Assembly (NCBI RefSeq): GCF_025370775.1
Contig: NZ_JAMXEX010000015.1
Coordinates: forward strand, 1 to 64,000
Source of the DNA: Ancylothrix sp. D3o
GTDB lineage: Bacteria; Cyanobacteriota; Cyanobacteriia; Cyanobacteriales; Oscillatoriaceae
DNA length: 64,000 nt
Direction: 5' to 3'
The translations under genes were made by a program, and so were the position numbers. Position 1 is the first letter of the stretch. Each line of letters starts with the position of its first letter. Below are positions 14,396 through 26,943 of the stretch, piece by piece. Below the pieces are notes generated by a model. The model searched no databases. It had not been told where the DNA came from and worked only from the letters and a program-made list of their open reading frames with translations.

Positions 14396-17300
14396 ATGAA
14401 TAATTCATCTCCTGAATTTTTACCACAAGACATTGATATCTTAGATTTTTTAAGAATAGAGCTAGTGAATCTGAGTGGATTTTCCACATTAGCTTATGAG
14501 TTGATTCAAAATGCAGAAGATTCTAAGTCATCTTGGATCAGATTCAATATTTGTAAGGATGCGCTGATTGTTGAAAATGATAGCGAATTTAGTGAACAAG
14601 ATTTTGCCAAAATGCAAAGACTAGCTGGAGGTGACAGACGGGCTGAAGACGAATGGACAATAGGCAGATTTGGAATTGGTTTTACCTCAGTTTATCAAAT
14701 TACCGATCACCCAGAAATTATCTCTTCTGGTAAGCACTGGACTTTTTATCCTGAAAAAGAATCTAATTCCAGAATTAAACAAGTTCTGTTAGAGAAAAAA
14801 TCTCCAGGTACTCGTTTCTGTTTTCCTTGGGCTAGTTCAGATACCAAAATTCGTCAGAAGTTAGAAGTAGGAATTATTTCTCCAGATTCAGTTAATCAAT
14901 TTTTTAAAGATATTTCGGAAGCTGCTCCAAAGTCAATGATTTTTTTACAAAATCTTAAAAAAATAGAAATTCAATATGAGAATAATTTAATTAAAATTTT
15001 ACAAAAAAAAGATAAAGGAAAAACTATCATTGAAAGTATTGATCAACTCAAAAAAATTACTACTTATAAAGGCTGGTATCTTCTTGATGGTAATTTTAAT
15101 GAATATGCTAATGTATTAAAAGCCAAATCTCAATTGACTATCAAAACGAAACGTCGAGCAGATGTTGTTGTCGCTATTCCTGATAGCAATCAAGATAATT
15201 TTTCTGGTTTTTACTATGCTTTCTTACCAACTAAACAAGAAACTCAACTGCCTTTTCATATTAATGCAGATTTCTTCACACTTTCTGATCGCAAAGGAAT
15301 TGTCTTAGAACAAGGCGATCAAACTATATGGAATGGATTAGCAATTATCGCAGCTGCCGAGATCATTCAGCAAAACCTAATACATCTCAGAAATATTCTA
15401 GGTCATAAACATCTCTGGAGTTTCTTAAGCCAGATTGAAGTACAATCTCAGGATCAATTATTAAAATTTTTATGGCAAAAACTATATCCTAAAGTTCAGT
15501 CTTCAGAAATAATTTTTACATCTGCAAACAAATGGCAGTCTCCCCAACAAGTCTGTTTGTTAGAAAAAAAAGAAGAATATAAACTCTCCGCAGTTTTAGA
15601 GAAAGCCTTGGAGAAAATAAAACGTTCTTCAATCGTACATTCTGATCTGCACTCTTATTCTAGTTTGCTCAAAAAAGTTGGAGTAATTTCACTAGATGCC
15701 TCAATGTTAGCAGATGCTCTTTTTGCGTGGGGATTAGTTAAAGCAATAGCTATAAATCAAGTACCGGATTGGATCAAGTCTGAAACTCAGCGAGATCAGT
15801 TAGCAAAAGAAGTTGGAATTTTATTTACTCGTCAGTCAGTTGGGAAAGATACAAGCGCTAAAGATAAGTTAAAAAAATGTGCAATCGCCCTAAGTAATGA
15901 TAAGCAACTATGTCCTCCTATTAACTTGTACCACGCCAAACCAGAAACAGCTACTTTATTTAAAATTTTAGGTGTTCCGCAATCTTTCCTAGCATCTGGT
16001 AATCCCAAAGAAATTGAAGATTTAGTTGCTAAATTCACTGTTGATAAAGCTATTGAATTGTTAGAAAAAATTAGTACATCACAATTAGAAAAACAATGGC
16101 GGGAGAATCGGAACCTTATATCTGAAGTGATCGGATGGTTAGAAAATCATCAACAAAATATTTTACAACCTGAAAGAAGGCTGTTAGATCGTGTTCGCAA
16201 GTTGTCCATTTTTCCTAGTTCTGATCGACTTCGCCCCTTAGAAGGTCTGGCAATTCCTGGCTCTTTTGAAGACACATTAAATCTAGCTTCATTGGTGGAT
16301 ATTCAATATGTGCGTGGACACATACATTTTTTGGTAAAGCTAGGGGCAAAATCTTTAACTTTTTCAGAGTATGCTAGTGAACAAGTTCCCAAAGCTTTCA
16401 AAGAAAAACAAATTTCGCCTGAAGCTCGCCGTCAATTAGTTTGTCAATTAGCAACGCATCTGGAAGAAATTGAAGGAAACAAACAAATCCGACAGCTATT
16501 ATCTCAATGTCCTCTAATTGAATGCAAAGATGGTCAGTTTCGCTCTGCTGATGAAGCTTACTTAGACAGTGAATCTGTTCATAAAATTTTTAGCAATTGG
16601 ACTTTGGAAAACCAAATCGCGGTCTTACCAAAGAATTGTGCAGAAAAAGCTCACAAGTTCTTGAAATGGCTACAAGTAGTTGATCAACCACGCCTGATTC
16701 ATATTTTTCAAATCATTAACGCCCTGAAAGCAAAGGAGCCGAAAGGAACTACCAGAAAACAGATGCAAGAGATTTTTGAACATCTCACTGAACGATGGGA
16801 ATCATTAAAATCAAGAACGTTAGAATTTGAGCCTATAAATTCTTTAAAATCTATGGCTTGGTTGCCTGTAAAAGAAGATGAAACACAATGGTATTGTCCT
16901 AATCAAATATTTACTAGCTTCTACCATTATCTAGTTGATACTCAAGTGAAATTTCTGGATATTGATACTAGAGTGGAACTGCAAGCTGAAGCTAATAAAT
17001 TTAGTGAATTTTTAGGGATTAAAACTACACCTCAAGTACAGCAAGTTATCGAAAATCTATTAACCTGCTCTCAGCAAGGTTACTTCTTGGATAATCGCGT
17101 TTATAAATTTTTACAAGATAACATTGATCTGATCAATGATAATAATCTTGAAAGGCTAAAAAATAGCTCAACTATTTATCTGGGGCAGAACAAATATATC
17201 CAACCTGAAAAAGTTTTTTGGAACGATCATCCTTTTGGAAAATATCGTTATCATTTACCTGACCATTTACATTCTTATTATACGCTTTTTCAAAAATTAG

Positions 17301-18781
17301 GGGTTTCTGACTCTCCAGAACCAATCGATGCTATTTTCCTGATCGAAGAAATTAGCAAAAATTTTGAAAATGATAATGTTTGCTTAGATGACGAAAGTTA
17401 TAAGGTACTCCTTGATTGTTGGAAAATTTTAACCCAGGCTAAAATTGAAAATAGTTTTGGAAATGATAACAACGAGCTACAAAAATTTAAAAATTTGAGT
17501 ACCCAAAAAGTAATTCCTAATGCTAAAAGAGTTTTAACCATTCCTGAGCAGATATTTTTTGTAGATCGTCCTAATTTATTGGAAAAGTTAACTTTTCTCC
17601 AGAGTAACGAAAATGTTATCCCTAGACCGGCAGAAGCTTGGTATGCAATGGAAGCTGTTGGTGTTCGTCCATTAAGTCAGGCAATAAAAACAAAATTAAC
17701 GCAACTAGAGCCTACCAATCCCAATGTAGATCAAGTCATAACCAAAAGATTGAAAAATAGAAAATCTTTGATCAAGCGAGTTCTTCAAGGGCAGCTTTTG
17801 ACTACTTTTCAAGCTGGAAATTTGGATTGCTGGGAAAAATTAATTGTTAAAAAAGCCAGCTTGATTAAAGTCCGTTATCACTTTGAGTTACATTCAACTC
17901 CTGAAGAAATAATACAAGTTTATCTTGATTATAGCCAAGGAAATCATCAATATATTTTGTACTATCAATTACAAAATGGAGTTGAACCTTGGCCCCACAT
18001 AGCGAGGGAAATTGCTTATGCCATTAATCCTAATGCAGAAGCTGGAAAAGTTGCCGCAGGTATCAAAGAAGTGATTATGGCAAAAACACCCAAGGCTGCA
18101 TCTGAAATTCTGGATGCTCTTGGTTATGCACCAAGTTCTGATCCTATTCCTCCTGATGAAGAAAACCATGAAATTGAGAAACTTTCAGTACAAGAAACTT
18201 CCCATGAAACAACTACTATTACATCAGAATATCAAGGTACAGGCGATCCAAAATATGGTGCTTTAGGGGAAAAATGGTCACAACTTTTTTATGAATGGCT
18301 GGGTTATCAACAGATAATTAAACAAGAAGCTTCTGCTGGGTTTGATTTTCTTTGCACCCAACCTACAAAACAACAAGGGTTGAAGCCATTACTCAAAGTA
18401 GAGGCAAAAGCTATTAGCACTCCTGTCATTCGCATAACTATGAATGAATGGACAACCATGATGGATATTCAAAATCGAGAAAAATATGAACTTCTAATTG
18501 TTGTTCATACGAGTGGTTCAGTTGAAACAATAATTCGTGTCATGCACGTTTGGTCTACCTTCACTCGCATTTTTTCACAACTCAACGAACAAGATTTAAC
18601 ATCAGCACCTTACAAAAGTGAAAAAATTGATTTTCTAATTGGTTTGCAACGCAGCGCTCCTCAATACCCTGTTCAAAATGATGTTTTAATCAACTGGAAA
18701 AAATTAATAGACTCTATACCTCATCCAAACGTCAAAATCTATTCTCCAATAGATGAGAATCAATTCAGACCATTGAATTAA
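14396..18781 (+). CDS. Large sacsin-like GHKL/Hsp90-fold ATPase with C-terminal DUF3883
   Basis: This 1461-residue protein begins with a sacsin/Hsp90-type ATP-binding domain. The N box is YELIQNAEDS (Glu35, Asn39, Asp42), a VEND loop is present near residue 58, and a glycine-rich lid IGRFGIGFTSVYQ lies near residues 90-102. The long middle is helical and beta mixed without recognised domains. The C-terminal 150 residues form a DUF3883 domain, with YGALGEKW, then GFDFLC (Asp1317) and LKVEAKA (Glu1336, Lys1338), which fits a PD-(D/E)XK-like nuclease core. Bacterial proteins pairing such ATPases with DUF3883 are often found in defence islands and resemble plant NO VEIN. A defence role is inference; no nuclease activity can be shown from sequence. 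It is AT-rich and lies between direct repeats, consistent with insertion. Confidence 0.82.
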   Translation: MNNSSPEFLPQDIDILDFLRIELVNLSGFSTLAYELIQNAEDSKSSWIRFNICKDALIVENDSEFSEQDFAKMQRLAGGDRRAEDEWTIGRFGIGFTSVYQITDHPEIISSGKHWTFYPEKESNSRIKQVLLEKKSPGTRFCFPWASSDTKIRQKLEVGIISPDSVNQFFKDISEAAPKSMIFLQNLKKIEIQYENNLIKILQKKDKGKTIIESIDQLKKITTYKGWYLLDGNFNEYANVLKAKSQLTIKTKRRADVVVAIPDSNQDNFSGFYYAFLPTKQETQLPFHINADFFTLSDRKGIVLEQGDQTIWNGLAIIAAAEIIQQNLIHLRNILGHKHLWSFLSQIEVQSQDQLLKFLWQKLYPKVQSSEIIFTSANKWQSPQQVCLLEKKEEYKLSAVLEKALEKIKRSSIVHSDLHSYSSLLKKVGVISLDASMLADALFAWGLVKAIAINQVPDWIKSETQRDQLAKEVGILFTRQSVGKDTSAKDKLKKCAIALSNDKQLCPPINLYHAKPETATLFKILGVPQSFLASGNPKEIEDLVAKFTVDKAIELLEKISTSQLEKQWRENRNLISEVIGWLENHQQNILQPERRLLDRVRKLSIFPSSDRLRPLEGLAIPGSFEDTLNLASLVDIQYVRGHIHFLVKLGAKSLTFSEYASEQVPKAFKEKQISPEARRQLVCQLATHLEEIEGNKQIRQLLSQCPLIECKDGQFRSADEAYLDSESVHKIFSNWTLENQIAVLPKNCAEKAHKFLKWLQVVDQPRLIHIFQIINALKAKEPKGTTRKQMQEIFEHLTERWESLKSRTLEFEPINSLKSMAWLPVKEDETQWYCPNQIFTSFYHYLVDTQVKFLDIDTRVELQAEANKFSEFLGIKTTPQVQQVIENLLTCSQQGYFLDNRVYKFLQDNIDLINDNNLERLKNSSTIYLGQNKYIQPEKVFWNDHPFGKYRYHLPDHLHSYYTLFQKLGVSDSPEPIDAIFLIEEISKNFENDNVCLDDESYKVLLDCWKILTQAKIENSFGNDNNELQKFKNLSTQKVIPNAKRVLTIPEQIFFVDRPNLLEKLTFLQSNENVIPRPAEAWYAMEAVGVRPLSQAIKTKLTQLEPTNPNVDQVITKRLKNRKSLIKRVLQGQLLTTFQAGNLDCWEKLIVKKASLIKVRYHFELHSTPEEIIQVYLDYSQGNHQYILYYQLQNGVEPWPHIAREIAYAINPNAEAGKVAAGIKEVIMAKTPKAASEILDALGYAPSSDPIPPDEENHEIEKLSVQETSHETTTITSEYQGTGDPKYGALGEKWSQLFYEWLGYQQIIKQEASAGFDFLCTQPTKQQGLKPLLKVEAKAISTPVIRITMNEWTTMMDIQNREKYELLIVVHTSGSVETIIRVMHVWSTFTRIFSQLNEQDLTSAPYKSEKIDFLIGLQRSAPQYPVQNDVLINWKKLIDSIPHPNVKIYSPIDENQFRPLN

Positions 18782-18865
18782 GATTGAACTCATGTTAACA
18801 GCCGGTGAACCCTTGGACTCTTGCTGTCAACCCTAATCTTAAAATCCAGAAACCCCCTCTCTCCG

Positions 18866-18880
18866 AGAAACCCGGTTTCT
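18866..18880. repeat. AGAAACCCGGTTTCT palindrome
   Basis: A perfect short palindrome of a kind that recurs at 26871-26887 and 26907-26922, and as split arms at 60826-60858. It is probably an interspersed hairpin element that can also act as a transcription end. Confidence 0.7.
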
Positions 18881-19000
18881 TCTCCGCCACCCAGACCTAC
18901 TCAAAAATTTTCAGGAAATTTGCGTAAATCTGTTTTCCGGCATCAATAGATAGACAGGTCAAGCTCTCCAGCTTGTACAAATTATCACGAGGTTAAAGCG

Positions 19001-19066: not shown

Positions 19067-19330
19067 ATCTGACTTTGATTGAGAGCCACTATTAAGACGC
19101 TTAAGATTGCTCAAATTGATGGCGATAAGCTTTGCTTAAGCCGTCCGCTATCCCTGTTTCTTGGCACACTACAGATAGCGTGCTTGCCTAATTCCTGGTA
19201 AATTTTCTAAAGCAATTTAAGTGTAAATACTGATGTGTTAAATCACGCGAACAGGTTTAATCAAAGGACAAGTAAGAAACAACCAACGACAAATAACTAA
19301 CAAATAACCAAACTAGAGGATTACAATTAA

Positions 19331-21550
19331 ATGGGTAATGTAGTTGGCATAGACCTGGGCACAACAAACTCCGTAGCAGCCTTTAAGTGGGCTGAGATCG
19401 CAGTCGTCAAAGATCAAGAAAACAGTGGAAAAAATCAGGAACTGACCCGCTCGGTTATTGCATTAGACGAAGGTAAACTTGTGGTGGGGACGAAAGCCTA
19501 TGATCAGCTAAGAAATAATCCAGAAAACGTGATTATTTCCATCAAACGTTTGATGGGGCGCGGATTTAACGACCCTACAGTGCAACAGCAATTGTCTCGC
19601 TTAAACTATAAAATTACCCAGTCAACTCAGGGCACTGATAACAGCCTCTCTGTTTGGTTGGATGGGCAAGAATACCAACCAGAAGATATCTCTGCGGAAA
19701 TTCTTAAAAAGGTGGTGGAAAATGCCCAGCTTCATCAAGAAAAGAAAGCCGATCACAAAGGTAAAATTACTCACGCAGTTGTGACGATTCCGGCTTATTT
19801 TAATGACAAACAGCGTTACGCTACTCAAACTGCTGTCCTACGAGCGGGTTTAGGATTACTGGAACTGCTACCCGAACCCACTGCTGCCGCTATTTCTTAT
19901 AGATTTAAACAGGATTCTGATGAGTGCAACAATATCTTGGTTTATGATTTTGGTGGCGGCACATTCGACTCCTCTTTAATTACTGCTTCTGGCGATCAGT
20001 TTATCGAGTCTGGTAAAGCTGGCGATTTGTGGTTGGGGGGCGATGATATTGACCACAAGCTTTTTGAATTCGTTAAAGCTAAAGTAGCGCAAGAAGAAAA
20101 AATCGAGAATATCGATGTTTTAATTGCCAAAATGCCCTATTACCATCGGGTTCGCTTTTTAGCCGATGTCAAATTTACTGTAGAGCAAGCGAAAATAGAT
20201 TTAAGCACCAAGGAGACAGCACAAATTATACCCGCGACTCCCCTCTTAGACGAATTGGGAATGGCAATTCCCATTGATGTAAAAATCACTCGCCGGGAGT
20301 TGGAAGAAATGATTTTGCCATTGGTAGAACGCACGATCGCAATTTGCCAGGATACTTTGAAATATTCCGACTATCCCGCCGATCAAGTTGATATTGTTTT
20401 GCTGGTCGGGGGTTCTTCAAAAATTCCTTTAGTTCAACGCAAAGTCCGCGAAGCATTTGGTGCAGATAAGGTAGTAGTTCATCCAGACCCCATGCTTGCG
20501 GTGGCCGAAGGAGCGGCTATTGTAGCAGCAGGATTGGTACCAGATAAAGTTTCTACTGTTTCCCGCGATTACTTTATTGAATTGGTGAATGAACCGCGAT
20601 ATAAACTCATCGAACAAGCGGAGATGCTGCCGATAAATACAGCCCATACATTTCGCACAGAAGCCGACGGACAACGATTGATTCACTTTAAATTTTTCAG
20701 TCCTGATCTGGTTAGTGAAGACATCGATGGCCTCAACCGGGACGAACGCATTGGGGAGATGTGGTTAGCACTCGACAAACCTTATCCACGAGGTACAGAA
20801 GTAGTAGTTACAGTAGAACTAGATGAGAAAAATAGTTCTTTGCAAATTACCGCAGCCCTGAAAAATAACCCAGCCGTTAGAGTCAGTTGTTCGTTTTCGC
20901 GGGGTGGCGTAGATGAAGAAATTGCCAGCGAAGTAGAGCGAACAATTGCTGAATTGAATCAAGCAGGTAACTTGACAGAAACAGGGGTGCAAACTGCTTA
21001 TGAAATTGCCGGTGCAGCCATTTCTGCCTCTAACCAAATTCGAGGTCAAGATAATAAACCGCAAGCTGATCGCGTCGCAGTTGCTCAAAGTAAACTTAAG
21101 CAATTAAAAACATTTGCTTCAGAAGATCGGGATGTGGCTCAGTTCTTTGTGCGGGAATTTGAATTCCTCATGGAACATTGCTCCTTTATGCTTCCTGATG
21201 CTCAAAAACAACGGATTCAAAGTCTCACCAAACAACTCAAAGATGCGATTGCTATTCATAATCTATCGGCAATGCAAAAACTCATCGAAGATGCAGAACG
21301 GGAAATGAAAAATATGCCCGAAGAAATCCAAAAGTTATTACTTGCCAAAGATGCCATCCGAAAAGCCAATTCTGTTGACCCCACTCGCGCTAGTTTCATG
21401 GCAGATAAATTACAGCGTGTGATTCATGCAATGGAGCATGAAAATATGAATGAAGCTAATCGCCTTTGGAACGAACTCGTTCCAGATATCCGCGAGTATG
21501 GATTGCGCGAAGTTTCTACTGCAAATATTGCGACGGGAATTACACGATGA
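19331..21550 (+). CDS. dnaK: Hsp70 (DnaK) paralogue heading an accessory chaperone operon
   Basis: The 739-residue protein has a full Hsp70 nucleotide-binding domain: GIDLGTTNSVAAF at the start, LMGRGFNDP, VVTIPAYFNDKQR, EPTAAAISYRF, VYDFGGGTFDSS and VLLVGGSSKIPLVQ. From about residue 385 the usual substrate-binding domain is replaced by a diverged beta region and a long helical C-terminal part (residues 540-730). It is about 100 residues longer than E. coli DnaK and has no EEVD-type tail. It heads a run of five genes with overlaps, including a GrpE-like protein but no canonical J protein, so it is a dedicated paralogue rather than the housekeeping DnaK. The start ATG has an AGAGGATT site upstream. 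Confidence 0.9.
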   Translation: MGNVVGIDLGTTNSVAAFKWAEIAVVKDQENSGKNQELTRSVIALDEGKLVVGTKAYDQLRNNPENVIISIKRLMGRGFNDPTVQQQLSRLNYKITQSTQGTDNSLSVWLDGQEYQPEDISAEILKKVVENAQLHQEKKADHKGKITHAVVTIPAYFNDKQRYATQTAVLRAGLGLLELLPEPTAAAISYRFKQDSDECNNILVYDFGGGTFDSSLITASGDQFIESGKAGDLWLGGDDIDHKLFEFVKAKVAQEEKIENIDVLIAKMPYYHRVRFLADVKFTVEQAKIDLSTKETAQIIPATPLLDELGMAIPIDVKITRRELEEMILPLVERTIAICQDTLKYSDYPADQVDIVLLVGGSSKIPLVQRKVREAFGADKVVVHPDPMLAVAEGAAIVAAGLVPDKVSTVSRDYFIELVNEPRYKLIEQAEMLPINTAHTFRTEADGQRLIHFKFFSPDLVSEDIDGLNRDERIGEMWLALDKPYPRGTEVVVTVELDEKNSSLQITAALKNNPAVRVSCSFSRGGVDEEIASEVERTIAELNQAGNLTETGVQTAYEIAGAAISASNQIRGQDNKPQADRVAVAQSKLKQLKTFASEDRDVAQFFVREFEFLMEHCSFMLPDAQKQRIQSLTKQLKDAIAIHNLSAMQKLIEDAEREMKNMPEEIQKLLLAKDAIRKANSVDPTRASFMADKLQRVIHAMEHENMNEANRLWNELVPDIREYGLREVSTANIATGITR

Positions 21551-22098
21551 AAACTTATCTCACTTGTCCCGTATGTGATCGCCCCAAAATTGAAGGAAAC
21601 ATCTGCCCTAATTGCGAAACTGATTTATCCCTAATTCGCACCCTCACAGAACTGCCAGAACTGCCTTCCGTACCAACCAAATCAACAGCGATCATGCCTT
21701 TGGTGCCAATTGGAGTCGCAATTCTCATCCTGTTATTGGGGATAAGTTTAGGTGCAGTTGGAAATTCATTTTATGTGCAGCAACGTCAACCGGCAGTTGC
21801 GAGTATTTCTCCGGCTTTAAAAACCACAGTATCCCCACAAGTTAATCCCACAGTTAATCCCACACAATCGCTAGTTGCCACCTCAAAAAAACCCGACGAA
21901 GAATCCCTCCTTTGTGGCGGATTTTATTACAAAGTAAAGCGCGGTGATTCTTTATCGCTCATTGCGAAAAAGTTATATGGAGATGTAAATTTATGGCCGC
22001 GAATTGTAGCCGCAAATTCTAACCTAAAAGGTCGCGTAAATACTTTGGCAATCGGTGAGATATTGCTGGTGCCAAATTTGGAGGTAAATTGTTTATGA
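21547..22098 (+). CDS. Zinc-ribbon / transmembrane / LysM protein
   Basis: The 183-residue product starts with a four-Cys zinc ribbon (CPVCDRPKIEGNICPNC), followed by one transmembrane helix (about residues 52-78, ending GAVGNSF), a Pro/Thr/Val-rich linker, and a C-terminal LysM domain (YYKVKRGDSLSLIAKKLYGD, then WPRIVAANSNL and LAIGEILLVP). The zinc ribbon is on the cytoplasmic side and LysM should bind peptidoglycan outside. The ATG overlaps the dnaK stop as ATGA, so translation is probably coupled; a longer frame opening upstream at 21466 would run inside dnaK and is rejected. It would tether the Hsp70 machine to the wall; this is inference. Confidence 0.82.
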   Translation: MKTYLTCPVCDRPKIEGNICPNCETDLSLIRTLTELPELPSVPTKSTAIMPLVPIGVAILILLLGISLGAVGNSFYVQQRQPAVASISPALKTTVSPQVNPTVNPTQSLVATSKKPDEESLLCGGFYYKVKRGDSLSLIAKKLYGDVNLWPRIVAANSNLKGRVNTLAIGEILLVPNLEVNCL

Positions 22099-24860
22099 TC
22101 GTTGATCAAATCAATCGGGTAAGCAGTCTTTTATTAGGGGTGAACTTTGCTGAAGTTTCGCGGCAAGTTTCCTATTCTAAATTCCTATTCCAAGAGGCTA
22201 AAAATCTCTCTAGCCAAAAGAAGCTACCAGAAGCGATTGCCAACGCTGAAGAAATTCTCAATTTGTGGTATCCCATTGAGTCGGTTTCTGAATTCATTGT
22301 GCAAAAATTTACCGTAGAATTTCTGTTAGCGGAAGTTAAAGATAGTTTGTCTCTTTGGAAACTTAAATGGAAAGAGCAAACAGAAAAAACCGAAAAATTG
22401 CTGAATTCAGCTAATCAAGTTTTGGCGAAAGAAACGGGAGCTTTACCGAGTATAATAGCCTTGTCTGACGCACTGCATCTTTACCAAAATTCCTATTCAA
22501 TCTATCCTGACGAGCAGGTGGCTATCGCTTTGAATCGATGCAGAAATCTCCTGAAATGGCGACAAAAATATCAGTCACTCGTTGAGTCAGCGGAAAAACT
22601 CGCAAAACAGAATTATTTTCAACAAGCAATTTCTCGATATAAAAAAGCGCAAGAACTGTTTGCCACCGATGAGGTGGAGGCAGCGATCACGCATCTTTAT
22701 TCTCAGCTTGAAAAAGAGGAGAGGTTTGCAGCAACTTGGCGTCAAACCTATCAGTTATCCTGTGAGGGAAAATTTCGAGAAGCGCTCGCCCTTTTGGAAA
22801 CCGGACTAGCTCAATTTCCCCGTTCTGATGGCCGCGATTTTTTATTAAAATTACAGAATATTGTCCGGGGAATCGAACAGTTTCATCAGGGATGGAGTCA
22901 CGAAAAAGCTGGGGATTTTTATCGAGCCTTACTCTGCTACGAATCCGCCCAAAAATTATTACCAGATATCCCAGAATGCACGCTCCGAAAAGCATCAGTT
23001 GCCGTTAAATTTGGCCAGTTCGATAAGGCACTTGCCACTTTAGAAGCGGTGACAGGAAATCAAGCGGCTTATCTTCGGGGATTTGCTCATGGGAAAAAAC
23101 AGAATTGGCAGCAAGCTAATCAAGAATGGCAGTCTATTTCAGATCCGAGAGTTGAGCAACAGCGCCAAATTTTGAAGATTTTGGTGGAACGTGATCGCAC
23201 CCTCAGTTTACAGCAAATCGAGCAATCTGTTGATGCGGCAAATTTTGAATCGGCAAAATCAATCAGTCTTCAATTTATCAACAAATTTGGCACCTATGAA
23301 CTCGTCAAAACCAATTTAGAACAGCATATTATCCCTCGGATAGACCACGAAATTTGGCAAGGTAAAAACTGGCAGCAAATCGCCGAAACTGCGGCACAAG
23401 TTTGGCGGGATAAGGGCGATATTGTTTCCCTACATAATTGGGCGATCACTACTTACTACTGCTGGCAAAATAACCCAAATAAATTTGCACAGTTTATGCC
23501 AGATTTTATTGTCACTTGGTCAAGTGCAATCGCCAATATTTACCAAGACTCTTCTCTGAAAAATTTGCCTTGGTTATCAAATACAGCAGTTGACTTAAAC
23601 GCAGCCACATCAGACTTGCAAAAAATCCTAGAAAATGCCGTTGACTCCCTCAGAGATCGAAGTTTAAACGATTATTTGCGTCTGCGCGATCTTTATCGTC
23701 AGGAAATGGTGGCACTGCGTTTGATGGGAACTCCGGCAAATTCAGGAGCGAAAAAAAATAATTTGTACTTGACTCCTGGTTTTTGTTCGCGTTCTCAGAT
23801 TTCCATAAATCAAATTGAAGTTTCCCTAAAAAATTTCCATAATTCTAACGATATATTGCGGGGACTTTATACGAATTGGGGATTAGCGGTAGCTGCTTGT
23901 GTTGAAGGAGATATTGCTCGCGCTATTCAAATTAAACCGGCAATAAAACCCAACAAAACTAGCGAAGTTTTTGCTCAAAAATTTGTCTTGTACCATGAAG
24001 GTTGCTATTATCTTCAACAAAAACAATGGCGGCAGGCTATATCGTCTCTCAAGCCAGCGGGTTTAGCCATCAAAGCGAATGGAGAATGGAGTCAAGAAAT
24101 AGACCGACTTTGCCAACAGCAGCGTCATGCTATTTCTGATTTTAAAGAACATCTAAATTTTGCTCAATCTTGGTATGAATTATTAGGAAGTCAACCAGCT
24201 AGAAGCTATTTAGCAGAATATCAAGCGGAGCAAATTCGTGAGCAATTAGTTGCGGAAACAATTCAGGAAACAACGGCACTTAAAAAACTTGAACAAATTA
24301 AGCGAATCGACCCTAAAAATCCGGTAGTCCTTGACCTAATTGATCGCCTTGAGATTATTCAAGACGCTCGAAAAGTCGATGAGCTTGTCAAGGCACATAA
24401 ACTAGAGCAAGCCGTTCAACAAGCCAAGCGCTCACGCCATCAGAAAGTCCGCGATAATCTGACAGAATTTTTCGTCAAGGTATTTATTGAAGGATTCAAA
24501 AGTGGTGAATTAAAGTTTGAAGATATTGTTAAATTAGGAGGTTGGATCTACGAACTTTCTCCCGAAGATTCTACGGTTCAAGAAATTTACAAGTGGAGTA
24601 AAGAATTTAAAAAAGTTCAGGATTTAATGAAACTTGATCGCTTTGATGAAGCGGTGAACTATGCCAAGTATTCCGGCTGCGATCCGCTTAAATATTATCT
24701 GGCGGATTTATTTATAGTGTCTCTGATTAAAGGGTCAAAATCTCAACAAATGTCTTATGAGTTGATCCAGAAGTTTGGCCTATGGGCTTATAAACTTTGC
24801 CCGGATAAAGTTGAGTATCAACCAATTTATCGTGATTTAGGTATTCGTAGTTTCTTTTAG
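22095..24860 (+). CDS. Large helical TPR-like protein of the Hsp70 operon
   Basis: The 921-residue protein is almost entirely helical, with many degenerate TPR-like helical hairpins (for example AIANAEEILNLWYP, AISRYKKAQELFATDEVEAA, REALALLETGLAQFPRS, KAGDFYRALLCYESAQKLLP). The last 160 residues contain two related blocks, each with a K-x-D-E-L/DLM..A..AK...KVRD-like helix, a FI.G.KSG/S segment and (G)GW/WAYEL.P. No enzyme motif or signal peptide is visible. The ATG overlaps the previous stop as TTATGA. It probably serves as a cytoplasmic scaffold or client-binding partner for the Hsp70; I know no named family for it. Confidence 0.75.
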   Translation: MIVDQINRVSSLLLGVNFAEVSRQVSYSKFLFQEAKNLSSQKKLPEAIANAEEILNLWYPIESVSEFIVQKFTVEFLLAEVKDSLSLWKLKWKEQTEKTEKLLNSANQVLAKETGALPSIIALSDALHLYQNSYSIYPDEQVAIALNRCRNLLKWRQKYQSLVESAEKLAKQNYFQQAISRYKKAQELFATDEVEAAITHLYSQLEKEERFAATWRQTYQLSCEGKFREALALLETGLAQFPRSDGRDFLLKLQNIVRGIEQFHQGWSHEKAGDFYRALLCYESAQKLLPDIPECTLRKASVAVKFGQFDKALATLEAVTGNQAAYLRGFAHGKKQNWQQANQEWQSISDPRVEQQRQILKILVERDRTLSLQQIEQSVDAANFESAKSISLQFINKFGTYELVKTNLEQHIIPRIDHEIWQGKNWQQIAETAAQVWRDKGDIVSLHNWAITTYYCWQNNPNKFAQFMPDFIVTWSSAIANIYQDSSLKNLPWLSNTAVDLNAATSDLQKILENAVDSLRDRSLNDYLRLRDLYRQEMVALRLMGTPANSGAKKNNLYLTPGFCSRSQISINQIEVSLKNFHNSNDILRGLYTNWGLAVAACVEGDIARAIQIKPAIKPNKTSEVFAQKFVLYHEGCYYLQQKQWRQAISSLKPAGLAIKANGEWSQEIDRLCQQQRHAISDFKEHLNFAQSWYELLGSQPARSYLAEYQAEQIREQLVAETIQETTALKKLEQIKRIDPKNPVVLDLIDRLEIIQDARKVDELVKAHKLEQAVQQAKRSRHQKVRDNLTEFFVKVFIEGFKSGELKFEDIVKLGGWIYELSPEDSTVQEIYKWSKEFKKVQDLMKLDRFDEAVNYAKYSGCDPLKYYLADLFIVSLIKGSKSQQMSYELIQKFGLWAYKLCPDKVEYQPIYRDLGIRSFF

Positions 24861-24870
24861 GAGGTTTTAA

Positions 24871-26244
24871 ATGGAAAACAAACAGTGTTCTGCCAATCCT
24901 TACGATATTCTCGGTGTTTCCCCGGCTGCATCAAAAGCAGAAATTACCAAAGCTATGGGGCTCGCCATGAAGCGCAAGGAATATCCCCTTCAGGAGATTG
25001 CCGCCGCGCAAAAAAGTCTCCTAGACTCACAAAAACGCATCATCGCTGATTATCTGCGTCCGATTTTACCACCGATTAAACGGTTCAAGCGAACAGATTT
25101 TTCTAGCATACAAACTACTGCCCCACAATTAAATTTACTGGCAGACTTTGAAGCACCAGATTTGGATATTGAGAGGAAAGTCGTTAACTATATTAGAAAC
25201 GATATTAATCCAAATTTGCCATCGCATTTCGCCGAAATAGATACAAAGTTAGAAGCCGGGGCACAACTTCCCTCTCAAGAGGAATTATCCGTTAAATTTA
25301 TTGGCGCTAGTTTAAGCAAACTCCCTAAAGTCATCCCCCAAGCTGAGATAAACCCGGAATTAAAATTTAATGGTAGTCATCTGGTTTTAGATGGGATTAG
25401 ATTTTTTGCCTGGCTATTTGTTTTTGGCCAGATTTTTTCTACGGTTGTCTTAGCTTTTAACACCGGACATGAATTACAAAAAGAGCAAGAACAAGCACAG
25501 AATATCGAATATTTAACCTCATCGGAATCCCCAGAAGTTCCACAGAGACAACAGATAACACAACTATCGGAAACACCGGCTTTTGTAAGGCAAGAAAAAC
25601 AGCGCTCACCACGAACGGAACCAGTGGTTAAACCTGAATTTTCCGAACTTTATTATGCTAAGGGCTTTCCCCAAAATACCTGTGGCGATCAAGTCCCTAG
25701 TGGCACAAATGAGTGGTATCCGGTTTATGTAAACTATAGCGAGGATAATTTAAATCGAGTTCGCAATTTTTACTGTAGAGATGCGTTCAAAAAACAGAGA
25801 CAAACTGGCGAAATATCGGTTCAAGTTGCCTCGTTCTTGAATCGATCTGATGCTGTAGAGTTTGCAAATATTCTCAAATTTGATTTGGATAGTGGAGAAG
25901 TTGGCAAATCATCTAGCTATAATTTTGATGCTCCCTCAGTTCGGGCTAATGCCGCCGATCTATTAAGAAACAAAAGTAATTCATTTCCTCTAAGTTCTTG
26001 TGGGGATAGTCATCCAGGTAGGATTAATGTGTGGTATCCTGTCAATGTGAATTATAGCGTAAGCAATCTAAGATTTATGCAGAAAAATTACTGTGCAGAT
26101 GCCTTTGTTAAATATGTCAGAGAGACTAACACAGATATGATTCAAGTAGCATCTTTTCTGAATATCAATGATGCCAGAGAATTCGCCAATTTCTTAAAAA
26201 CACAAGTTGGTAGCGGAGAACTTGGCGAAAGTTCAATTTATTAA
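24871..26244 (+). CDS. J-like protein with transmembrane helix and two SPOR-like repeats; HPD motif absent
   Basis: The 457-residue protein starts with a J-domain-like region (NPYDILGVSPAASKAEITKA, then AMKRKEYPL and LLDSQKRIIADYLRP). The His-Pro-Asp tripeptide needed to stimulate Hsp70 ATPase is replaced by Tyr-Pro-Leu. A transmembrane helix lies near residues 175-195 (FFAWLFVFGQIFSTVVLAF). The C-terminal half has two tandem repeats of about 80 residues, each with a CGD start, WYPV.VNYS, YC.DAF and a SPOR-like (I/V)QVASFLN..DA.EFAN.LK. SPOR domains bind septal peptidoglycan. It sits between the TPR protein and the GrpE-like gene, with an AGGAGG ribosome site. Confidence 0.8.
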   Translation: MENKQCSANPYDILGVSPAASKAEITKAMGLAMKRKEYPLQEIAAAQKSLLDSQKRIIADYLRPILPPIKRFKRTDFSSIQTTAPQLNLLADFEAPDLDIERKVVNYIRNDINPNLPSHFAEIDTKLEAGAQLPSQEELSVKFIGASLSKLPKVIPQAEINPELKFNGSHLVLDGIRFFAWLFVFGQIFSTVVLAFNTGHELQKEQEQAQNIEYLTSSESPEVPQRQQITQLSETPAFVRQEKQRSPRTEPVVKPEFSELYYAKGFPQNTCGDQVPSGTNEWYPVYVNYSEDNLNRVRNFYCRDAFKKQRQTGEISVQVASFLNRSDAVEFANILKFDLDSGEVGKSSSYNFDAPSVRANAADLLRNKSNSFPLSSCGDSHPGRINVWYPVNVNYSVSNLRFMQKNYCADAFVKYVRETNTDMIQVASFLNINDAREFANFLKTQVGSGELGESSIY

Positions 26245-26334
26245 TCAATCACCAATATCTTTTGTGATTTGTCATTATGTCAGGAGGGGCAAAAAATACC
26301 CACACCCCTACAAATAACCAATAACCAATAACCC

Positions 26335-26805
26335 ATGACCAATCTAACCTTTAACGCCGAACTGCGAGACGAACTTGTAAACAAATTGGGAAACCTGGAA
26401 AAAGAACGAGTAGGACTCCAACAAGAATTACGCGAACAAAAGTCACAAGCAATAGCCGCTAAAGAGGAACTGTTTTTAGAGCTATTTGATGTTTTTGATG
26501 CTGTGGAATTTTTACTTGATTATATGGAGCAGCATTCTGAACTTCCTCCTCAATTTATTCAGCGTTTACCTAAGTCTCTCTCAATTGTGCAAAAGAAATT
26601 GCTGGGGGTACTTCAGCGGCGTCAAGTTGAACTTTTAGAACTGGAAGGAACTAAACCTGATTTCGATTTTTGCCGGGTAGTGGAACGAGAAGTGCGAGCG
26701 GATGTTGAGGATCAAAGCATTACTAAAATTGTGCGCCGAGGATTTCGTCATGGGGAAAAAATTCTGCGACCCATCGAAGTGATTACTTCTAAAAAAGAAT
26801 CATAA
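26335..26805 (+). CDS. grpE: GrpE-like nucleotide exchange factor
   Basis: The 156-residue protein has the GrpE layout: an N-terminal coiled coil (LGNLEKERVGLQQELREQKS), the helical LELFDVFDAVEFLLDYM bundle segment, and the beta-wing part ending VVERE..ADVEDQSITKIV, RRGFRHGEKILRP and VEVI-like residues. The R-x-G-(F/Y) and Lr-pa-V-V-type ending is typical. It is the last gene of the Hsp70 operon and would exchange nucleotide on the DnaK paralogue. A 90-base gap separates it from the J-like gene. Confidence 0.85.
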   Translation: MTNLTFNAELRDELVNKLGNLEKERVGLQQELREQKSQAIAAKEELFLELFDVFDAVEFLLDYMEQHSELPPQFIQRLPKSLSIVQKKLLGVLQRRQVELLELEGTKPDFDFCRVVEREVRADVEDQSITKIVRRGFRHGEKILRPIEVITSKKES

Positions 26806-26831
26806 TCAGCCGATTACTATCCCAAACCGGC

Positions 26832-26943
26832 TTTCTTTGTGTAACTCCACAGTTAACGATAATATCCACCAGAGAAACCCGGTTTCTTCGTTATCCCTGG
26901 GCTGTGAGAAACCGGGTTTCTTTCTGTAACTCCACAGTTAACT
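26832..26943. repeat. Paired direct and inverted repeats after the Hsp70 operon
   Basis: TGTAACTCCACAGTTAAC occurs twice (about 26839-26856 and 26926-26943), enclosing two GAAACC-type palindromes (26871-26887 and 26907-26922). The paired hairpins lie just downstream of the last operon gene and could end transcription. Confidence 0.7.

Follow-up and report, generated by a model that had tools for sequence, protein, structure and literature searches.

A conserved five-gene operon of cyanobacteria encodes an Hsp70 machine that probably runs in a new way, apart from the ordinary chaperones

Five adjacent genes of the window (the whole 64-kb stretch of DNA analysed) form one conserved operon. Its products are an Hsp70-like ATPase, a zinc-ribbon membrane protein (gene 2), a TPR-type protein (gene 3), a J-like protein (gene 4) and a GrpE-type nucleotide exchange factor (gene 5). 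This Hsp70 machine probably runs in a new way, apart from ordinary chaperones. Judged by alignment, the operon's Hsp70/J-like pair lacks the two sides of a contact that PMC7289447 reports to be invariant. Loss of the HPD motif, of its receptor arginine on the Hsp70 and of the interdomain linker appears to be the most unusual trait of the operon, one on which the preliminary description was silent. A tentative reading, of somewhat less than even probability, is that the pair gave up the HPD-arginine-linker switch on both sides for another coupling, and that the products form a naturally orthogonal, membrane- and wall-tethered five-subunit complex, spreading horizontally among cyanobacteria.

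All five open reading frames of the preliminary description are present at its coordinates (19331-26805), with the junctions that it gave: ATGA overlaps at the first two, a 10-base gap at the third and 90 bases before grpE. The HSP70, LysM (9.5e-6), TPR_2 and GrpE domains score above the Pfam cut-offs (other E values in Table 1); DnaJ (0.0019), SPOR (0.0088) and zinc ribbon (0.0021) fall below theirs. Loci for comparison were taken from a scan with the J-like gene, the best 80 of 122 matches being kept (38 cyanobacterial, 42 other). All five genes stand in the same order in 31 of the 38 cyanobacterial loci so found; of the remaining seven, six are interrupted by a contig end and one is split. 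Recurrence in 31 of 38 other loci shows that the five-gene set is not a chance association, and the gene order, which the preliminary description had proposed to follow across genera, is conserved in many of them, beyond close relatives. Among the best 80 of 122 matches, the set occurs in none of the 42 non-cyanobacterial loci, which give 24-34 bits or no match with the J profile. No conserved sixth gene was found, each flanking family being confined to at most 7 of the 38 loci (blastp 1e-8, half coverage clustering). In 6-7 loci of Nostocales the downstream genes are shared (named by eye; one resembles signal peptidase, the others adjoin it), which was set aside as local synteny.

Table 1. 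Coordinates, in the window, of the operon, its parts and its surroundings.
Feature	Position	Strand	Details
Hsp70-like ATPase	19331..21550	+	739 aa; Pfam HSP70 1.6e-95; retains the catalytic residues but has lost the linker and the residues of the J contact
GLLELLPEPTAAA	19853..19891	+	E. coli DnaK R167 position = Glu178 (codon 19862-19864); N170 position = Pro
Shortened interdomain linker STVSRDYFIEL, replacing VLLLDVTPLSLGI	20552..20584	+	alignment
Zinc ribbon / one TM helix / LysM protein (gene 2)	21547..22098	+	183 aa
Parts of gene 2	ribbon 21565-21615, TM about 21688-21744, LysM 21922-22077	+	Pfam, alignment
TPR-type protein (gene 3)	22095..24860	+	921 aa, all-helical superhelix; TPR_2 1.2e-8, AF2 model
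J-like/TM/SPOR-like protein (gene 4)	24871..26244	+	457 aa
HPD-less J domain	24895-25071	+	profile, AF2 model
AMKRKEYP, in place of the DnaJ HPD loop	24964..24987	+	profile alignment
TM helix of J-like protein	about 25402-25458	+	predicted
SPOR-like repeats of J-like protein	about 25696-25920 and 26023-26241	+	AF2 model
GrpE-type nucleotide exchange factor (gene 5)	26335..26805	+	156 aa; Pfam GrpE 8.1e-14
Shared DNA unit	19214..26842	+	86-90% identity, Planktothricoides sp. SR001 (from 19220), MAG S07.Bin090 (from 19214)
Palindromic repeat GAGAAACCCGGTTTCTTC	18865..18882	.	upstream of operon
Two further copies of the GAGAAACCCGGTTTCTTC-type palindromic repeat	26872..26923	.	just 3' of grpE

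The operon Hsp70 belongs to PF00012 at about 320 bits (cut-off 20.6), where housekeeping-type DnaKs score 802-912 bits. It reaches 227-295 bits across the DnaK equivalog models, against cut-offs of 648-1019 (in NCBIfam, 289.3 against 822.55 and 294.9 against 648). Catalytic residues E171, T199, D201 and D8 are retained in 38 of 38 operon Hsp70s and K70 in 37. R167 is kept in none of the 38 compared (E in 35, K, I and V in one each; alignment), and the linker LLLDVT (E. coli DnaK residues 390-395) has no counterpart in any; the other Hsp70s of the comparison have R167 in 33 of 34 and linker residues 390-395 in 31 of 34. Positions of the substrate cleft are hydrophobic (V436 replaced by I in 37/38, I438 by F in 33/38), and the Pfam HSP70 alignment extends to profile position 592 of 599. 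The linker is absent also from L004, L006 and L007, divergent Hsp70s of the same genome, so its loss alone is not specific to the operon Hsp70s; L004 carries Pro at N170 and retains R167. Operon Hsp70s form one clade on a long branch, with a support of only 0.694 (FastTree). The HPD-contact arginine and the linker aspartate are reported to be invariant (PMC7289447), and the J-Hsp70 switch is described as dependent on two contacts, H33-L391 and D35-R167 (PMC13012618).

HPD is found in none of the 38 operon J-like proteins; the D35 position is occupied by Y in 34 and by H in 4 (profile alignment). The J fold is present in the AF2 model at residues 10-62, with pLDDT mostly 94-97, and the modelled domain fits E. 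coli DnaJ (5nro_B) with an rmsd of 1.9 over 51 residues and Z 7.0. The J-like profile matches solved J domains (best E 2.6e-4); Foldseek with the model gives no match at E up to 0.001. With neither half of the standard contact present, canonical DnaJ should not drive the operon Hsp70, nor should the J-like protein drive the housekeeping DnaK. A contact with swapped charges, in which a basic J loop would face Glu on the Hsp70, was considered and rejected, no covariation being found; the three Hsp70s without Glu (one in L117, two in L119) are accompanied by no matching change in J, compared by eye. Hsp70-J fusions occur naturally in G047 (L119) and Geminocystis (L163). ARC6/ZipN and CPP1-type proteins of cyanobacteria and plastids have a J-like domain, as the operon J protein does, and some of them are membrane proteins; we know of none encoded with a dedicated Hsp70. 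The ARC6 and CPP1 families are absent from the Pfam scan of the window J-like protein (E up to 1).

The preliminary description placed two wall-binding membrane partners in the operon and suggested attachment to the cell envelope. Gene 2 agrees with a conserved membrane partner: its TM helix is present in 31/31 and its LysM in 27/31 named loci. LysM (PF01476) scores 25.9 bits in the window protein (cut-off 20.9); three of the 16 rows of the gene 2 alignment (L115, L121 and L123) lack it as well; C7, C10, C20 and C23 are invariant in the 16 aligned homologues. Membrane topology is not fixed by the positive-inside rule. The second partner does not generalise. A TM helix with two SPOR-like repeats occurs on the J-like protein in the window and 4 of the 38 loci, and a TM helix alone in one; in the remaining loci the tail has no predicted TM helix, and the tail-less J-like protein of Planktothrix is only 118 aa long. 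The idea of two wall-binding partners therefore fits the window genome and a few others, and putative wall binding is not essential, since LysM is absent in 4/31 and the J-like TM/SPOR tail in most loci. The repeats are modelled as beta-alpha-beta-beta-alpha-beta (AF2), score 16.8 bits with PF05036 (cut-off 21), and at residues 276-349 resemble CwlC SPOR 1x60 (Z 6.8, rmsd 2.9 over 71). The SPOR-like repeat is a module found elsewhere too: L035, a protein kinase that also carries an ARC6-like IMS domain, has one; three further SPOR-like-repeat proteins have no Pfam match.

The 921-aa protein is modelled as an all-helical TPR-type superhelix (AF2 mean pLDDT 88.3), its profile matches the PDB entry of an engineered TPR protein (1.1e-31), and it is likely a scaffold. 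The 50 Foldseek matches listed for the model are general TPR superhelices, with a query TM-score of at most 0.15; the TPR domain of the J protein P58(IPK) is among them. The operon GrpE scores 52.1 bits with PF01025 (cut-off 25.8), and its profile matches 4ani (8e-9) and 1dkg (1.3e-6).

The J-like gene is patchy, occurring in 21 of 292 cyanobacterial genomes. The window Hsp70 is 89% identical to that of Planktothricoides, against 78% for DnaA of the same pair, and about 61% identical to that of G053, against 79% for DnaA; from these sequence comparisons the operon moved recently and horizontally among cyanobacteria. Homology of the unit shared with SR001 and S07.Bin090 stops near both edges, short repeats excepted. 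The core pattern of the GAGAAACCCGGTTTCTTC repeat has 26 copies in the 6.57-Mb assembly. Plasmid records hold no match to the TPR protein; 37 phage records hold remote Hsp70s, with less than 60% identity to the operon Hsp70.

Published qPCR primers for P. agardhii hsp70(4) match the operon Hsp70 gene of Planktothrix exactly. That gene was transcribed, in the group of lowest mRNA, changed 0.82-fold after 2 h of high light, when dnaK rose 13.3-fold, and rose 1.3-1.7-fold at 24 h (PMC3762838). By primer match and these data, the operon Hsp70 of Planktothrix is transcribed, without strong induction by light stress.

The operon shares with canonical bacterial DnaK/DnaJ/GrpE the Hsp70 ATPase residues, the J fold and the GrpE family; it differs in having no HPD, no R167 and no LLLDVT linker, and in adding two subunits, of which gene 2 encodes a membrane protein. 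The mitochondrial PAM motor, as outlined in part of PMC9695410, consists of mtHsp70, HPD-less Pam16, Pam18, zinc-ribbon Tim15 and Mge1. It thus likewise combines an Hsp70, an HPD-less J-like protein, a zinc ribbon and a GrpE at a membrane (putatively so for the operon); however, Pam16 pairs with the HPD protein Pam18, whereas the operon encodes neither an HPD partner nor a channel, and mitochondrial Hsp70s are stated to retain the arginine (PMC7289447, in part). The Nostoc DnaK1-DnaJ3-GrpE system of type IV pili is likewise a specialised cyanobacterial Hsp70 system, but its locus is grpE-dnaK1-dnaJ11, and N. punctiforme is reported with a single GrpE (PMC9239167, in part). GAP1-N2 GTPase conflict systems likewise have HSP70 and GrpE genes close to one for a partner with J or TPR domains, and their HSP70-bearing sets are mainly actinobacterial and firmicute (PMC7159879, in part); the five-gene unit itself contains no GTPase, GAP1 or FNIII protein. 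No description of the operon was found in the literature (open-licence PubMed Central papers).

An accessory conflict or defence module, in which the Hsp70 set senses envelope disturbance such as phage entry and triggers a response, is unlikely. It would suit the patchy occurrence and horizontal movement of the operon, the TmtA defence-type neighbour at 14396-18781 (3.1e-295), the ZorB-type genes of L128, L129 and L130, which lie no more than about 4 kb from the operon, and the conflict systems, mostly actinobacterial and firmicute, that PMC7159879 describes as containing HSP70, GrpE and either FNIII-DnaJ or TPR proteins. However, PADLOC matches none of the five operon proteins (E up to 0.01), no effector is obvious, neighbours in 11 Nostocales loci look housekeeping (named by eye), the TPR protein lacks a plasmid match, and phages carry only remote Hsp70s. 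PADLOC families on 139 ORFs of the flanks (114 families with at most 4 members each, counts pooled over loci) are not clearly above those on 135 control ORFs (154 families with at most 2 members each). Flank ORFs were the first 140 in locus order, one dropped for size, of 154 in 29 loci that met length and distance criteria; ORFs after L161 were left out, and L135, L139, L145, L146, L148, L151, L152 and L164 were set aside as near-duplicate or short. Controls came from a random draw of 140 among the 163 ORFs of 20 stretches, less five that were removed for their size; by chance they contained Pbe and Dnd genes.

Scores far below the DnaK equivalog cut-offs, the absence of R167, linker and HPD, and a matched Planktothrix gene that does not rise along with the heat-shock genes after 2 h of high light speak against a paralogue set of the usual DnaK/DnaJ/GrpE stress type whose extra domains are mere decoration; this reading is improbable, although Hsp70, J-like protein and GrpE are all there and the ATPase residues are kept. 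It is rather unlikely, too, that the Hsp70 is no longer a chaperone and instead serves, driven by ATP, as a switch or scaffold that helps to regulate the envelope or septum, with the J-like and TPR proteins as regulators. Divergent linker and cleft residues, the SPOR and LysM tails and the repeat on the L035 kinase point that way, but the cleft stays hydrophobic, the HSP70 match reaches nearly the end of the profile, and the presence of its own GrpE speaks for a nucleotide cycle that still runs.

The best explanation, given an even chance, is that the operon makes an Hsp70 machine of its own, which works separately from the housekeeping DnaK/DnaJ system and is fixed at the plasma membrane. In such a machine the J-like domain may dock on its own Hsp70 via a rebuilt interface, as the natural Hsp70-J fusions suggest. 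The TPR protein would bring clients or connect subunits, the zinc-ribbon/TM(/LysM) protein would fasten the complex to the membrane and to peptidoglycan, and GrpE would reset the ATP cycle. A protein close to the membrane, or an exported one, is the probable client.

J switching of Hsp70s has been studied around one contact, that of HPD with the NBD arginine and linker, to which PMC7289447 ascribes invariance across thousands of Hsp70s. Having neither half of it but still the ATPase residues, the J fold and a GrpE of its own, the operon family offers a natural experiment that can show whether J control can work another way. The operon Hsp70 may be an orthogonal chaperone without cross-talk to that of the host. 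If tethered to membrane and wall, it would be a bacterial envelope-attached Hsp70 machine, of a kind known, to our knowledge, mainly from organelle import motors.

The operon is real, conserved and mobile. Its five open reading frames, with their overlaps and gaps, came out on re-check of the sequence as in the preliminary description; of their domains, Hsp70, LysM, TPR and GrpE lie above the Pfam cut-off, and J, SPOR and zinc ribbon below it. GrpE looks ordinary by profile, including the C-terminal part. The AF2 model of the window's J-like protein (mean pLDDT 66.8) has a four-helix J domain (pLDDT mostly 94–97) whose loop behind helix II is shortened. A long helix spans the membrane segment; of the two repeats, the first shows beta-alpha-beta-beta-alpha-beta order. 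At modest Z, the J part resembles E. coli DnaJ in the DnaK complex (5nro_B; rmsd 1.9 over 51 residues, Z 7.0) and the first repeat the CwlC SPOR domain (1x60; Z 6.8). Foldseek alone gave no match to this model at E up to 0.001.

Among 60 related genomes, counting the window's own, the TPR gene is found (E up to 3e-37) in 13 others, and exactly these also have the J-like domain (E up to 3.3e-8), a weak J match in G011 (5.7e-4) being left out of the count. GrpE is present in 13/13 of these and Hsp70 in 11/13; in the other two (G026, G031) a contig end falls inside the operon. Contrary to strict linkage, G009 and G027 have GrpE relatives and G036 a partial Hsp70 although none of the three carries the set. 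None of the 13 genomes belongs to the window's own family, which is represented by seven genomes, G006 being only 66% complete. A named genome collection was scanned with the J-like alignment, and the best 80 of 122 relatives include 38 cyanobacterial loci of the operon family (L128–L165), in genera including Planktothricoides, Spirulina, Nostoc, Anabaena, Calothrix, Planktothrix, Arthrospira, Geminocystis and Acaryochloris. The synteny proposed as a check in the preliminary description is borne out over many genera: the order Hsp70, zinc ribbon, TPR, J-like, GrpE is complete in 31 of these 38 loci, counting L131 (TPR as two ORFs), L154 (Hsp70 as two ORFs), L152 (a contig end truncates Hsp70, and a further Hsp70 piece sits at the opposite end) and L141 (one more ORF ahead of grpE). 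A contig end cuts six of the remaining loci (L151, L155–L158, L163), and L162 (Prochloron) is broken at two places. An evenly drawn sample of the phylum, own genome included, has the J-like gene (E up to 1e-8) in 21/292 genomes and 20/116 genera.

Genome G052 carries three operon copies on one chromosome (L112, L113, L114): one whole, one with a broken Hsp70 and no adjoining GrpE, one decayed. The remnant of a second TPR gene in the window's genome (L127, on the 3452-base contig C86; 72% over 116 residues, 84% over part) means that this genome may once have held another copy. L124 (G053) and L125 (G027) are a smaller arrangement of two of the operon's parts: a zinc-ribbon/TM/LysM gene, then GrpE with a long repetitive tail; beside them is a gene resembling a GAF histidine kinase (by eye), and Hsp70, TPR and J-like genes are missing.

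In gene 2, the zinc-ribbon cysteines and the stretch after them are best conserved; a membrane helix is present in 31/31 and LysM in 27/31 named loci from the best 80 of 122 relatives, and three rows of a separate 16-row alignment are without LysM. In many genomes the J-like protein is a J domain extended by roughly 30 conserved residues (by eye). In Nostocales its tail is TPR-like (by eye); in L130 the tail has just a TM helix, and the window, L128, L129, L157 and L161 have TM together with two SPOR-like repeats. G047 has a second Hsp70, fused to a J-like domain; a Geminocystis contig has an Hsp70/J-like fusion too, and the two may be one event. A SPOR-like repeat also stands between a protein kinase and an ARC6-like IMS domain in L035.

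For contact residues (E. coli DnaK numbering), 42 operon Hsp70s of at least 700 aa from both locus sets and the window, 38 of them distinct, were aligned to E. coli DnaK; shorter, broken or cut ones (e.g. L113, L152, L154, L163) were dropped. D8, E171, T173, T199 and D201 are unchanged in 38/38, K70 in 37/38. R167 is replaced by Glu in 35/38 (K, I, V in the others), N170 by Pro in 35/38 and Ala in 3/38, E217 by Ile in 36/38; linker residues 390–395 have no counterpart in any. Among 34 comparison Hsp70s (window's genome and 12 relatives), R167 is kept in 33 and the linker in 31, the exceptions all coming from the window's own assembly, as divergent Hsp70s (for R167, L006; for the linker, L004, L006 and L007). 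L004 and L006 are two Hsp70-like genes close together on contig C32 (open frames 1077 and 634 aa), both without the standard linker, with Lys at R167 in L006; possibly another unusual Hsp70 system. Asn at D481 of the SBD (31/38) is not distinctive, since the three ordinary DnaKs of the window's genome show it. HPD occurs in 0/38 J-like proteins (window and 37 loci; the L163 fusion, left out of the alignment, has none in its printed sequence either), its place being taken by [K/R]x[Y/H] in the profile alignment. PMC7289447 gives the arginine and the linker aspartate as invariant in its set (Table 1: 1560 DnaKs, 1324 other Hsp70s); according to PMC13012618, the switch needs D35-R167 and H33-L391 contacts. 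Judged from the alignments, both partners of both contacts are absent from the operon proteins.

The hsp70(4) primers of Planktothrix agardhii fit the Hsp70 gene of the operon in Planktothrix sp. PCC 11201 (L149) without mismatch, spaced so as to yield the reported product of 259 bases; in L152 there is one mismatch. None of six other chaperone primer pairs matches L149 or L152 with up to four substitutions. PMC3762838 places hsp70(4) in the lowest mRNA group and among the genes that changed significantly but slightly (under 4-fold): wild type and mutant stood at 0.82-fold and 1.00-fold after 2 h of high light, with dnaK at 13.3-fold and 8.3-fold, and at 1.31-fold and 1.67-fold after 24 h. The operon Hsp70 gene would therefore be transcribed and not of heat-shock type in that test. 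Since the strain studied differs from both PCC 11201 and the window's organism, this reading depends on the primer match.

Coordinates of the operon, of features around it and of the L035 protein
Feature	Position	Orientation	Description
1461-aa protein	14396-18781	as operon	directly upstream; PADLOC TmtA match 3.1e-295, Pfam Sacsin; defence-type gene
Shared unit	19214 to about 26842		86-90% DNA identity with Planktothricoides sp. SR001 (L128) and MAG S07.Bin090 (L129)
Operon	19331-26805	+	five genes
L035 protein	322-2169 of L035		kinase, SPOR-like repeat, IMS domain

Homology with L128 and L129 begins 111–117 bases upstream of Hsp70, with 90% identity over the first 6.4 kb; against 20-kb stretches of both, the rest of the window matches in short repeats alone (E up to 1e-10). 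Operon Hsp70 identity is 89% to G043 (Planktothricoides) and 61% to G053; no operon Hsp70 was found in the window's family. The housekeeping proteins show a different pattern, and the operon is read as horizontally transferred: for DnaA the identities are 77.8% (G043), 78.8% (G053) and 80.8–83.6% (four same-family genomes), for GyrB (431 residues) 84.9%, 86.3% and 87.0–87.7%. GyrB matches in seven genomes (L251–L257) end at E. coli residue 431 (L251: 500) in open frames of 824–1230 aa, as if interrupted by inteins or insertions. The palindrome AGAAACCSGGTTTCT has 26 copies in the window's 6.57-Mb assembly, three flanking the operon on its two sides, and 1335 in G043, a distribution that fits the operon's import from a donor rich in such repeats. 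The copy numbers do not single out one donor: G001, of the window's family, has 1316 and G034 has 274; numbers range from about 1300 per genome in G043 and G001 to none in G002 and G041. L128, L129 and L130, the three closest among the matches listed, have ZorB-type genes no more than about 4 kb from the operon, and in L128 an EH-signature (ZorC-type) gene adjoins it.

On the best reading, the operon would encode a dedicated Hsp70 system whose cycle is served by a J-like docking protein, a TPR scaffold and a GrpE of its own. The zinc-ribbon/TM protein would keep it at the membrane and, in most genomes, LysM would attach it to peptidoglycan; tether and client alike are what we infer. As described in the available text of PMC9695410, the mitochondrial PAM motor has a similar parts list, but the operon is without an HPD partner and any known channel and is therefore not assigned to that type. 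No description of the five-gene operon was found in open-licence PubMed Central literature. Insulation from the housekeeping chaperones would follow from the absence of the contact residues; the operon's unusual point is the loss of a contact considered invariant.
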